From Natronomonas aquatica (GTDB taxonomy: Archaea > Halobacteriota > Halobacteria > Halobacteriales > Haloarculaceae): a DNA stretch of 47,107 bases. The position numbers and the translations under genes were made by a program. The stretch is taken from assembly GCF_024449025.1 (NCBI RefSeq), contig NZ_JAHLKM010000012.1, forward strand, positions 31,924 through 79,030, written 5' to 3'. This document shows, piece by piece, positions 15,491 through 40,901 of the stretch (position 1 is the first letter of the stretch; each line of letters opens with the position of its first letter). The notes under the pieces were generated by a model. That model saw only the letters and a list, made by a program, of their open reading frames with translations. It was not told where the DNA came from and did no database searches.

Positions 15491-15499
15491 ATACTTATG
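15491..15499 (+). promoter_or_regulatory. TATA element of the small winged-helix-like gene
   Basis: The sequence atacttatg is centred about 29 bases before ATG 15524. It overlaps the alternative ATG at 15497, so that codon would lie upstream of the transcript start. Confidence 0.5.
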
Positions 15500-15523
15500 G
15501 TATGTGAGCCCGTGTGTACCTGT

Positions 15524-15754
15524 ATGCGCATACGCCGGGGTGAGTTCGAACGTATCCGAACCGTGCTCTCGGAGGCCGACCCCGACGAGCCACTGACCGC
15601 CAGAGAGATCCTCGATCTCCTGGAGGAACACGGCGAGGAGTTCGACAGCGCCCACCGTGTGGCGACGGTGCTCGGCCGCGAAGCCGAGATCGGCCACGTC
15701 GAGGTGATCAGGGACCGACCCTATCGCTATCGGCTCGAGGGAAACCACAACTGA
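15524..15754 (+). CDS. Small winged-helix-like protein, unknown function
   Basis: A 76-residue protein beginning MRIRRGEFERIRTVL. The pattern of helix (GEFERIRTVLSEA), helix (TAREILDLLEEHG), recognition-type helix (SAHRVATVLGREAEI) and a C-terminal beta hairpin (HVEVIRDRPYRYRLEG) is that of a compact winged helix, so DNA binding is plausible. I do not recognise a named family. The start at 15524 follows from the TATA element; ATG 15497 would add nine residues including two cysteines but overlaps that element. It stands alone between the DUF5815-like and CBS genes, with a direct repeat in its promoter that may be an autoregulatory site. Confidence 0.65.
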   Translation: MRIRRGEFERIRTVLSEADPDEPLTAREILDLLEEHGEEFDSAHRVATVLGREAEIGHVEVIRDRPYRYRLEGNHN

Positions 15755-15847: not shown

Positions 15848-16993
15848 ATGAACATCGTAGACATCGCCACCGAGGAGTACCTCGAGGTGGACGCCGACGA
15901 GCGGCTCGGGAAGGTGCGGTCGCTCTTCGATCGGGAGAACCCGAAGGGGATCGTCGTGACCGACGGCGGCGAGTATTCGGGAATCCTCACGGAACGACAG
16001 CTCCTGCAGTCACACATCGAGGACGACGCGAAGGTACAGGTGCTGGCCAGAAACAACATCCCCCAGGTCGGCCGCGAGGACGACGTCCGGAAGGTCGCCC
16101 GCATGCTCGTCGAGGGCGGTACGAAGGTCGCGCCGGTCTTCGAGGACGGCGACCTGTGGGGGATCGTCACCGAGGACGCCATCCTCCGGGCGGTGCTCGG
16201 TAACCTCGACGTACTCACCGTCGAACAGATCTACACGGACGAGGTCATCACGCTGCGCGAGGACGACCACCTCGGGAAGGCGATCAACTACCTACGCGAG
16301 AACGACATCTCCCGGCTCCCCGTCGTCAACGACAGCGGGCGGCTGTCGGGGATGGTGACGACCCACGACATCGCCGACTTCGCCGTCCGGACGATGGAGC
16401 GACAACACTCCGGCGACCGGTCGGGTGACACCGATCGAATGCTCGATCTCCCGGTCTACGATCTGATGAACAGCCCGGTCGAGACGATCACCGGCGACGC
16501 GTCGGTCGAGACGGCCGTCGAGCGGATGTTCGAACACGACTACGCCGGGCTCGTCGTCACGCCCGAAGACGACGACACTGCTGTCGCCGGAATCCTCACC
16601 AAGACCGACGTGCTCAGAGCGTTGACGTATACCGAGGAGGAAAGCATGGACGTCCAGATCACCAACATCGACCTCCTCGATACGATCTCCCGGGAGATGA
16701 TCCAGGGGGCGATCACCGAGGTCGCCGACAAGTACCAGGACATGCAGGTCCACCACGCCCACGTCCGGTTCAGCGAGCACAAAGAGCGGCTCCGTGGCAC
16801 CCCGCTGATCCACTGTCAGACCCGGCTCCGGACGAACCGGGGCCAGATCGCCGGCTCCGGTGAGGGGTACGGTGCCGAAACGGCGTTCCGCGTCGCCTTG
16901 GACAAACTCGAGCGTAACGTCCTCGAAAAGAAGGAGATCCGCGCCGACGCCGAGTACGAGGGCCAGCTCCTCCGGAAGCTCAACGAACTGTAG
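15848..16993 (+). CDS. Four-CBS-domain protein fused to a C-terminal HPF/RaiA-like domain
   Basis: A 381-residue cytoplasmic protein. Residues about 1-120 form one CBS pair (VDADERLGKVRSLF...GIVVTDGGEYSGILTER; EDDVRKVARMLVEGGTKVAPVFEDGDLWGIVTEDA). Residues about 125-265 form a second (EDDHLGKAINYLREN...LPVVNDSGRLSGMVTTHD; DASVETAVERMFEHDYAGLVV). CBS pairs bind adenine nucleotides or related ligands. The last 110 residues read strand-helix-strand-strand-strand-helix: QITNIDLLDTIS, then MIQGAITEVADKYQ, VHHAHVRFSEH, PLIHCQTRLRT, GQIAGSGEG and a final AFRVALDKLERNVLEKK. This is the order and closing motif of ribosome hibernation-promoting factors. A nucleotide-sensing ribosome or RNA-binding factor is the best inference. 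It is transcribed alone and convergent with hemA. Confidence 0.82.
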   Translation: MNIVDIATEEYLEVDADERLGKVRSLFDRENPKGIVVTDGGEYSGILTERQLLQSHIEDDAKVQVLARNNIPQVGREDDVRKVARMLVEGGTKVAPVFEDGDLWGIVTEDAILRAVLGNLDVLTVEQIYTDEVITLREDDHLGKAINYLRENDISRLPVVNDSGRLSGMVTTHDIADFAVRTMERQHSGDRSGDTDRMLDLPVYDLMNSPVETITGDASVETAVERMFEHDYAGLVVTPEDDDTAVAGILTKTDVLRALTYTEEESMDVQITNIDLLDTISREMIQGAITEVADKYQDMQVHHAHVRFSEHKERLRGTPLIHCQTRLRTNRGQIAGSGEGYGAETAFRVALDKLERNVLEKKEIRADAEYEGQLLRKLNEL

Positions 16994-20252: not shown

Positions 20253-21389
20253 CTATAGTTCGCCGCTCATCGCGGCGAAGAATCGCTCCCGTAGTTCGCC
20301 CTGCCCGTCGCAGTCGGGAGCCGACGCCGGAAGCATCGCCTGACCGCCGCCCATCCGGGCGTGGCCGCCGGCGCTGGCGTCCGGGATGACGTTCAGGGCC
20401 GTCGAAACGGATTTTCCCATGTGGACGCGGTCGTCGCGGGACCGTCCGGAGATGTGCAGCGTTCCCTCGTGTTCGCCGGTGATCACGGCCGCCGTGATCC
20501 CTTCGAGGCGTATCAGCTCCTCGGCGGCGATCGGGAGCGCGTCGAGGTTCGACACCGAGCCGACGTGGCTGACGAGAAACGACCCGTCGATCTCCCGCCG
20601 GGTGATAGCCCGGGCCTTGATTTCGAGCGTCTCGCTGTCGACCTGTGGGTTCGCGATACGGTCCAGCGAATCCGGGTCTGCGGCCGGAAACAGGTACGCT
20701 GCGGCGTCGAACTCGGCGTGCGTACAGCCACGGGTGAACGAGGTCGTATCCGACTGGATGCCGTACAGGAGCCCTGTCGCCAGCACCGGCGTCAGGGACT
20801 GACCGTCCGCGTCCGGCCGGTTCGACCAGCCCCGTTCGCGGACGTAGTCGGTGAGAATGCTCGCACACGACCCGCGATCCGTCCGGATGTCGGTGAAAAC
20901 CGCCCCCTCCCCGTTTCCGGGGTGGTGATCGACCACTGCGTGGGGAACGATATCGTCCGCCCCCTGAAACCCCCGCGGCTCGTTGTGGTCGACCAGCACG
21001 ACCGTCTCCGCGGCGAGGTCCTCGATCCCCTCGACGTGCTCGAACTCACAGTCGAGCACCGTCTCGAAGGCGCGGTTCTCCGGATGCCGTATCTGTCCCG
21101 GATACTGGATGCTCGCTGCCGTGCCGCCCGCCCTGGCGAGAGCGCCGACCGCCATCGCGGAGGCCATCGCGTCCGGGTCGGGGTTCGGGTGCATGAGCAC
21201 GGTGATCCGGTCGTGGTCGGTGATCGCGTCGACGAACCGGTCGCCGCTGTCGGGACGGAGATACCACCATACCCCGCCCGCGAAAACCAGCGCCGCCGCG
21301 ACCACCGCGATGAGTTCCGGCTGTCGGGTGACCGTTTCGATGGCCTCCCTCCCCACGGCTGGCACTTCGCTGGCGATCTCCGACTGCAT
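20253..21389 (-). CDS. Membrane-anchored DHH-DHHA1 family phosphoesterase
   Basis: A 378-residue protein with a single N-terminal membrane helix (about residues 26-43, LIAVVAAALVFAGGVWW) followed by a cytoplasmic DHH-DHHA1 module. Metal-binding motifs are HPNPDPDAMASAMA (residues 67-80), VLVDHNEP, VVDHHPGNGEG and the Asp in GLLYGIQSDTTSF. The DHHA1 nucleotide-binding signature GGHARMGGGQA is near the C-terminus. The family hydrolyses nanoRNA, pAp or cyclic dinucleotides, and anchoring in the membrane recalls GdpP-type c-di-AMP phosphodiesterases without the PAS and GGDEF parts. The substrate cannot be fixed from sequence. It is a single gene, 34 bases upstream of ahbAB-facing sequence, with an insertion element just behind its promoter. 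Confidence 0.85.
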   Translation of the reverse strand: MQSEIASEVPAVGREAIETVTRQPELIAVVAAALVFAGGVWWYLRPDSGDRFVDAITDHDRITVLMHPNPDPDAMASAMAVGALARAGGTAASIQYPGQIRHPENRAFETVLDCEFEHVEGIEDLAAETVVLVDHNEPRGFQGADDIVPHAVVDHHPGNGEGAVFTDIRTDRGSCASILTDYVRERGWSNRPDADGQSLTPVLATGLLYGIQSDTTSFTRGCTHAEFDAAAYLFPAADPDSLDRIANPQVDSETLEIKARAITRREIDGSFLVSHVGSVSNLDALPIAAEELIRLEGITAAVITGEHEGTLHISGRSRDDRVHMGKSVSTALNVIPDASAGGHARMGGGQAMLPASAPDCDGQGELRERFFAAMSGEL

Positions 21390-21577: not shown

Positions 21578-22837
21578 ATGCCGACAACACGCCGAACCTA
21601 CGTCTGCCGCATCCAGAACCACACGCAAGTGGCTGGTGCGCTCGACAGACACGGCTGGTCGGCATCCAAACTCTGGAACGTCGCCAACTACTACGCCCGC
21701 CAACAGTGGGACGAAACCGGCGAAATACCCGACGAAAATGAACTCAAACGCGAACTGAAAACGTATCCAAAATACAAAGGACTGCATAGCCAGTCCAGCC
21801 AGAAAGTTTTAGAAGAGCTTTCTGAGGCGTTCAGTTCGTGGTTTGGCTCCGACGACAACCGGGATAACCCACCGGGCTACCGCAAAACCAACTACTACGA
21901 CGAAGACGGCAACAGAGTCCACGAAGAACACCCACGAAGCACGGTGACGTGGAAGCAGAAAGGTATCCGCCACGACACCAAACACGAAAAAATCCGTCTG
22001 GGCAAAGGAAAAAACCACAAAGACGGACATGACTTCATCCTCTGTGAGTATCAAGCACCACCAGAAGTCGAACTGGAGAACATCCAGCAGGTGCGTGCTG
22101 TCTGGTGTCGCTCCAAACAACGATGGGAGTTACACGTCGTCTGTAAAGAAGAAATCGCCGTAGAGTCGCCCGGCGAGAAAACCGCAGGTGTTGACCTCGG
22201 TATCTGTAATCCCGCCGCTGTCGCGTTCCCTGACGATGCCGTACTGTATCCGGGGAACACGTTGCGCGAAGACAAGCACTACTTCCAGCGAGAAGAATAC
22301 CAGACAGAAGGGCCGCATGGCCCCAGTCAGATGGCACAGTGGGCACGGGAGAAGCTGTCACGGCGGAAAGACCACTTCCTGCACGCTCTGTCGAAAGACA
22401 TTGTTGAACGATGTGTTGCCCACGACGTTGGAACGCTCGTTGTGGGCGACCCGAGCGGTGTTGACGACGATGACTGGGGCAGGCACGGCAACAAACGCCT
22501 CGATAACTGGGCGTACAAGCGGCTGATGAACCTCATCGACTACAAAGCCCGAGAGCGTGGCATCGAGGTAGAAATGCCCGACGAACGCGGTACGTCATCG
22601 TCGTGTAGCGTGTGTGGGAACGAGGATGATGACAGTCGTGTTGAACGTGGACTGTGGAAGTGTGGTCGCTGTGGGGTTGTCGCGCATGGCGACGTGAATG
22701 GAGCCGATAATATCAGACAGAAAACGCTACCCGTGACTCCCCCACTTGGGGATAGCGGTAACGGCTGTTTGGCCCAGCCTCGCGTCATTCACTTCAGCCG
22801 GACTCGTGGATTCCAACCGCGAGCACCCGCCGAGTGA
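21578..22837 (+). CDS. tnpB: RNA-guided endonuclease TnpB family protein
   Basis: Full-length TnpB of 419 residues, no frameshift. The RuvC-like nuclease contains the first Asp (Asp206, in AGVDLGICNP), the second-motif region LVVGDPSGV (286-294), ERGTSSSCSVCG with a four-cysteine zinc finger (Cys343, Cys346, Cys362, Cys365), and the last Asp (Asp372, in HGDVNGADNIR). At the second catalytic position the usual Glu is not seen; Gly290-Asp291 stand there, as I recall for other haloarchaeal IS1341 members. TnpB proteins cut DNA guided by an RNA made from the right end of their element, helping the element persist. The C-terminal tail (GNGCLAQPRV...) overlaps the presumed RNA. Start ATG 21578 follows an AT-rich leader. 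Confidence 0.92.
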   Translation: MPTTRRTYVCRIQNHTQVAGALDRHGWSASKLWNVANYYARQQWDETGEIPDENELKRELKTYPKYKGLHSQSSQKVLEELSEAFSSWFGSDDNRDNPPGYRKTNYYDEDGNRVHEEHPRSTVTWKQKGIRHDTKHEKIRLGKGKNHKDGHDFILCEYQAPPEVELENIQQVRAVWCRSKQRWELHVVCKEEIAVESPGEKTAGVDLGICNPAAVAFPDDAVLYPGNTLREDKHYFQREEYQTEGPHGPSQMAQWAREKLSRRKDHFLHALSKDIVERCVAHDVGTLVVGDPSGVDDDDWGRHGNKRLDNWAYKRLMNLIDYKARERGIEVEMPDERGTSSSCSVCGNEDDDSRVERGLWKCGRCGVVAHGDVNGADNIRQKTLPVTPPLGDSGNGCLAQPRVIHFSRTRGFQPRAPAE

Positions 22838-40199: not shown

Positions 40200-40901
40200 G
40201 TGAACGAGCCGATCTCGACGGGGTGTGAGACGATCGACGGGCTGCTCGGCGGCGGCGTCGAACGGGGCGTCGTCACACAGCTGTACGGTCCCCCGGCGGC
40301 GGGCAAGACGAACCTCGCGCTGTCTACGTCCGTTCAGGCCGCCGCCGCGGGCGGGAAGGCGCTGTACATCGACACCGAGGGGATCTCCGTCGATCGGTTC
40401 GAGGCGCTCGCCCGGGCGGCGGCCGACGGCGAGGATATCGAGCCGATCGCGAGCCGCGTTATCGTCTCTGACGCGCTGGACTTCGAGGAACAGCGGGAGG
40501 CCGTCCGGGACGCCGGCGATCTGGCCGAGAGCGTCGATCTGATCGTCCTCGACAGCGCCACGGGTTTTTATCGGCTCGAACGCGACGACGGGGACGACGG
40601 CGAGACGCTCCGGGCCGTCGCCAAGCAGGTGACCCAGCTGCTCGCCTTCGCCCGCCGACACAAACTGGCCGTCCTCATCACGAACCAGGTTTATACCGAC
40701 CCCGACGCGGACTCCTCGCGGGCCCGCGCGCTGGGTGGCCACACCCTGACCCACTGGTCGGGCGTCGTCGTCAGACTCGAGCGGTTCCGGGGCGGGAACC
40801 GACGGGCCACCCTGGAGAAACACGGCTCGAAGGCCGCCGGCGAGACCGCGCGTTTCCGGATCACCGACGGCGGCCTCGAGGGCGTCGAGGACGAAGTATA
40901 G
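40200..40901 (+). CDS. radB: DNA repair and recombination protein RadB
   Basis: RecA/RadA-family ATPase paralogue of archaea, 233 residues, lacking the N-terminal HhH domain of RadA. Walker A is GPPAAGKT (residues 30-37), and Walker B lies in SVDLIVLDSATGFYRLER. The C-terminal part (VLITNQVYTDPDADSSRARALGGHTLTHWSGVVVRLERF) is typical of RadB. It assists RadA in homologous recombination and interacts with Holliday junction processing enzymes in other archaea. Start GTG is set by the TATA element. It is convergent with rnhA, with only 6 bases between the stops. Confidence 0.93.
   Translation: MNEPISTGCETIDGLLGGGVERGVVTQLYGPPAAGKTNLALSTSVQAAAAGGKALYIDTEGISVDRFEALARAAADGEDIEPIASRVIVSDALDFEEQREAVRDAGDLAESVDLIVLDSATGFYRLERDDGDDGETLRAVAKQVTQLLAFARRHKLAVLITNQVYTDPDADSSRARALGGHTLTHWSGVVVRLERFRGGNRRATLEKHGSKAAGETARFRITDGGLEGVEDEV

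Follow-up and report, generated by a model that had tools for sequence, protein, structure and literature searches.

A probable HibA ribosome hibernation factor of Natronomonas aquatica and the linkage of its gene to radB among haloarchaea

The window examined here (47,107 nucleotides of Natronomonas aquatica contig NZ_JAHLKM010000012.1, positions 31,924 to 79,030) contains a gene that very probably encodes a HibA ribosome hibernation factor. HibA is an archaeal family of hibernation factors, joining a CBS module to an HPF/RaiA domain, that plug idle ribosomes and so shield them under stress; ribosome structures, inhibition of translation in vitro, AMP binding, and a deletion phenotype were reported in Nat Commun in April 2026 (PMC13324472). 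A first-pass annotation made from the sequence had flagged this combination of domains as potentially new. Both the family and the layout of tandem CBS domains with a C-terminal hibernation-factor domain, the latter for Haloferax volcanii HVO_2384 in 2025 (mBio, PMC12607858), had been reported before, and the window gene adds a new member to the family. Our analyses establish its architecture, fold, family membership, motif conservation, and near-universal presence among haloarchaea.

Gene and domain layout

The hibA reading frame is intact from ATG to stop, and the start methionine is common to all 15 aligned orthologs. Pfam detected four CBS domains in tandem, each about 60 aa long, within residues 1–269 (E 2.5e-41), ahead of the C-terminal domain. 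The closing helix singled out in the first-pass annotation, AFRVALDKLERNVLEKK, is the last helix of the HPF domain and is followed by an 18-residue tail; in P. abyssi HibA the equivalent end lies near the SD:anti-SD helix (PMC13324472). The features of the window discussed below are as follows.

15848..16993 (+): hibA gene, 381 aa plus stop codon; core haloarchaeal HibA
15848..16642 (+): CBS module, residues 1–265, two Bateman pairs (four Pfam CBS stretches; AF2 model)
16349..16369 (+): ribose/phosphate motif of CBS3, GMVTTHD, residues 168–174 (G168, T171, and D174 invariant in 16 orthologs)
16403..16447 (+): equivalent of the PTC loop between CBS3 and CBS4, residues 186–200, RQHSGDRSGDTDRML region (by comparison with P. 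abyssi HibA)
16589..16609 (+): CBS4 motif GILTKTD, residues 248–254 (G248, T251, and D254 invariant)
16649..16936 (+): C-terminal HPF/RaiA domain (Pfam S30AE, homology, AF2 model, structure search)
16937..16990 (+): C-terminal helical tail, residues 364–381 (low confidence in the AF2 model)
40203..40892 (+): radB, a Rad51-like recombinase gene, 23.2 kb from hibA

The C-terminal domain has the HPF/RaiA fold

The Pfam profile Ribosomal_S30AE matched residues 273–363 of the window protein with 20.2 bits (E 0.00099; 22.8 bits in another search), which is below the Pfam cut-off of 23.7 bits, yet the profile was matched by all 16 hibA orthologs, with a best E-value of 1.9e-5. When used alone, the C-terminal 115 residues matched the HibA-type chains 9l96 (E 7e-18) and 9sr9 (E 2.7e-7). 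E. coli RaiA was aligned over 40 columns with an E-value of 6.7e-5, compared with 0.17 for a control protein.

Because the Foldseek and VIA lists obtained with the whole model were filled by CBS proteins, the C-terminal domain was modelled and searched separately. The resulting AF2 model has the HPF fold, and Foldseek gave 22 hits with E <= 0.001, every one of them an HPF, RaiA, or protein Y chain. Its best structural match (Z 12.5) is chain x of the hibernating 100S ribosome from E. coli, and the first unrelated entry in the search is a dsRBD at Z 8.1. The fold is shared with bacterial HPF/RaiA proteins (E. coli RaiA and HPF; protein Y), which lack a CBS module and have very low sequence identity (about 20%) to the window domain. 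Homology of the C-terminal domain, the S30AE matches across the orthologs, and the Foldseek hits together rule out a chance likeness to HPF. The reading of four CBS domains fused to an HPF/RaiA-like domain, proposed in the first-pass annotation from the order of strands and helices, is therefore borne out, and the model does not show the different fold that would have refuted it. A search for a second HPF-like gene in the genome returned a single match (E 0.17) inside an 825-aa frame, which we take as chance.

The two parts of the protein differ in charge. With a mean pI of 7.2 across 38 orthologs, the HPF part is close to neutral, beside a strongly acidic CBS module (pI 4.3), as would be expected for an rRNA-binding part in a halophile.

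Family membership and predicted action on the ribosome

Over its full length (residues 3–378) the window protein aligns collinearly with residues 6–388 of P. abyssi HibA as solved on the ribosome (9sr9; E 3.7e-45), which the ortholog profile matches with an E-value of 5.8e-64. Both P. abyssi HibA (Pab0961) and Thermococcus barophilus HibA have the same make-up of four CBS domains followed by an HPF/RaiA domain at the C-terminus, although the window protein is remote from them in sequence and has an acidic, halophilic surface. This remoteness, seen as a long branch of P. abyssi HibA in the tree, may count against the assignment. The best full-length PDB match is 9l96 (E 4.3e-72), a CBS domain-containing protein of 406 aa with the same architecture. 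It groups with a paralog clade (see below) rather than with the core clade, and its CBS3–CBS4 loop is longer than that of the core proteins. Our literature search found no paper describing this structure, and a paper on rRNA circularisation that was checked as its source (PMC12918454) makes no mention of it.

Judging from size, architecture, and phyletic pattern, HVO_2384 is a probable ortholog of the window gene from a different genus; at 42.5 kDa it has the size of a core HibA. Its reported interactions are so far with Pat2 Y154A, RadA, and RadB, not with ribosomes (PMC12607858, PMC3820547). Other CBS-module proteins found on archaeal ribosomes are Dri of Pyrobaculum and SriA-D of Methanosarcina, whose CBS modules superpose on that of the window protein (Z 18–21) and for which no HPF domain is reported. 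Dri carries two CBS modules (eight CBS domains) and no HPF domain, whereas the window protein combines four CBS domains with one.

By analogy with the P. abyssi and T. barophilus proteins, the window HibA would be expected to bind ribosomes, inhibit translation, and preserve 70S particles. If homology is a guide, its HPF domain would block the mRNA/tRNA channel of the 30S subunit and its CBS module would cover the tRNA sites of the 50S subunit, and 70S ribosomes may thus be both silenced and preserved. The genome also encodes aSBDS, the partner seen with HibA (PMC13324472).

The CBS module, its adenylate site, and the PTC loop

Structural matches to the AF2 model of the CBS module include SriD (9zng, Z 21.4), MJ1225 (Z 21.0), AMPK gamma (4eak, Z 19.0), and Dri (9e7f, Z 18.5). 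Among 16 orthologs the GxxTxxD motif is invariant in CBS3 and CBS4 but not in CBS1 and CBS2. This pattern agrees with the single adenylate site of P. abyssi HibA at CBS3/4, where both motifs are likewise intact and where AMP, ADP, and ATP bind with affinities of 12, 65, and 113 uM, respectively (PMC13324472). Since the motifs are invariant, the window protein likely binds AMP at CBS3/4, and this interface would probably prefer AMP over ATP. On the ribosome, P. abyssi HibA inserts its CBS3–CBS4 loop into the peptidyl-transferase centre (PMC13324472). The equivalent loop of the window protein is of the same length; its residues G189, R191, G193, and R197 are invariant among the orthologs, and P. 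abyssi HibA shares the two glycines G189 and G193.

The first-pass annotation had further suggested a hibernation factor gated by ligand, acting as a sensor of energy charge. Its ribosome-binding part stands by homology and by the published HibA structures. The gating is not supported so far, since HibA–ribosome complexes showed no clear response to either AMP or ATP: in reconstituted P. abyssi complexes neither nucleotide affected ribosome binding and HibA conformations were essentially unchanged, and native complexes contained no nucleotide (PMC13324472).

Distribution and paralogs in haloarchaea

A full HibA of core or deep-branching type was listed in 53 of 60 haloarchaeal genomes, that of the window included. 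These matches are without internal stops, and all but one are full length or nearly so, the exception (G053) covering residues 36–381. Genomes lacking a core HibA are mostly incomplete. One genome that is 98% complete in a single contig (G044) has only a paralog (L066) and no core copy listed.

In a tree of 70 sequences, the core clade (38 sequences, support 99/99) is separate from the other haloarchaeal HibA-type proteins, which fall into two paralog clades with good support and a few deep branches. In the paralogs (L043–L069, L078, L079, and L082; for example L051 and L050) the PTC loop has a Gly-rich extension of roughly 15–25 residues and the chain ends in an aromatic tail (YGWW or RFGWM). 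The genome of the window holds the core copy only. One Natronomonas genome has the two types in tandem, with a paralog (L054) upstream of core hibA (L027) at a distance of about 110 bp. We found no paper on the split between core and paralogs, in a search whose reach excluded most subscription papers.

Gene neighborhood and linkage to radB

No conserved operon partner of hibA was found in the loci compared across haloarchaea. Operons with hemA or with the DUF5815 gene were considered and rejected as functional links: hemA adjoins hibA in just 5 of 50 genomes, which all belong to one genus, and the DUF5815 gene does so in 1 of 39. Within the window, an 85-aa ORF without a Pfam match lies directly upstream of hibA (15497–15754, +) and is absent from the hibA loci of relatives that we read. 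A DHH/DHHA1 phosphoesterase is encoded a few genes past hibA (20253–21389, −); among the loci read, it is near hibA only in that of the closest relative (L026). An ORF at 21578–22837 (+) resembles by eye a TnpB/IS1341-type transposase-associated protein with a C-terminal zinc ribbon.

The one gene that persistently keeps close to hibA across haloarchaea is radB. The two are convergent and less than 1 kb apart in 19 of 53 genomes and within 25 kb in 31 of 53, while control pairs are within 1 kb in 5 of 50 genomes or fewer (hibA–hemA 5/50, from one genus; hibA–DUF5815 1/39; radB–hemA 0/50; radB–DUF5815 0/39); the genomes are related and hence not independent, and the comparison is with these pairs rather than with a genome-wide background of conserved pairs. 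The linkage was absent from 16 more remotely related members of the phylum that were checked. It fits earlier protein data, in which RadB, GINS23, and GAN were recovered together with P. abyssi HibA (PLoS One 2013, PMC3820547) and HVO_2384 was reported, as a personal communication in the same paper, to interact with RadA and RadB, and gene order in these genomes hints at a second role. Since HibA-type proteins co-purify with RadA/RadB, GINS23, and Pat2, hibernation may not be their sole role.

Alternative explanations

These same observations allow a quite different account, in which the main role of the haloarchaeal protein is to couple energy state to DNA recombination or replication: the CBS module would bind adenylates and regulate RadB/RadA (and GINS), and ribosome binding would be a side activity or a form of sequestration. 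We regard this as quite unlikely. Co-purification and close linkage both speak for it, but convergent genes are not co-transcribed, linkage can reflect inherited gene order, and the association was not seen in the 16 more distant archaea checked. The 2013 study that introduced the partners of Pab0961 stated that the protein has no domain other than CBS, and therefore missed the HPF domain (PMC3820547); the fold and the published HibA structures point directly to the ribosome. It is far less credible that the protein is a CBS regulator whose C-terminal domain resembles HPF by fold only and binds some other RNA, for example double-stranded RNA. Weak dsRBD matches (Z up to 8.1) would favor such a protein, but they rank among the lowest HPF entries or after them and cover only about 70 residues, and the full chain and the C-terminal domain each match ribosome-bound HibA in sequence.

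A strict nucleotide switch, with AMP driving ribosome binding and ATP driving release, would refine the assignment to HibA and is compatible with it. The invariant CBS3 and CBS4 motifs and the nucleotide affinities of the P. abyssi module speak for it; set against the nucleotide-free native complexes and the unchanged conformations in P. abyssi, we consider it doubtful, if the most plausible of the three.

Implications

The assignment to HibA is thus the reading we retain, and the linkage to radB and the split between core and paralogs are the parts worth following. The survey confirms that almost all haloarchaea, a group with easy laboratory genetics, possess core HibA, and that several of them carry additional, diverged copies. 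The linkage supports, independently and from sequence, older co-purification results that had lacked an explanation. Both points are testable in Haloferax volcanii. We offer as a speculation, one we think unlikely as it stands, that haloarchaeal HibA also has a conserved functional tie to RadB and that the long-loop paralogs serve specialised hibernation states. If the tie to RadB is true, one adenylate-binding protein would connect ribosome hibernation with DNA recombination or repair.
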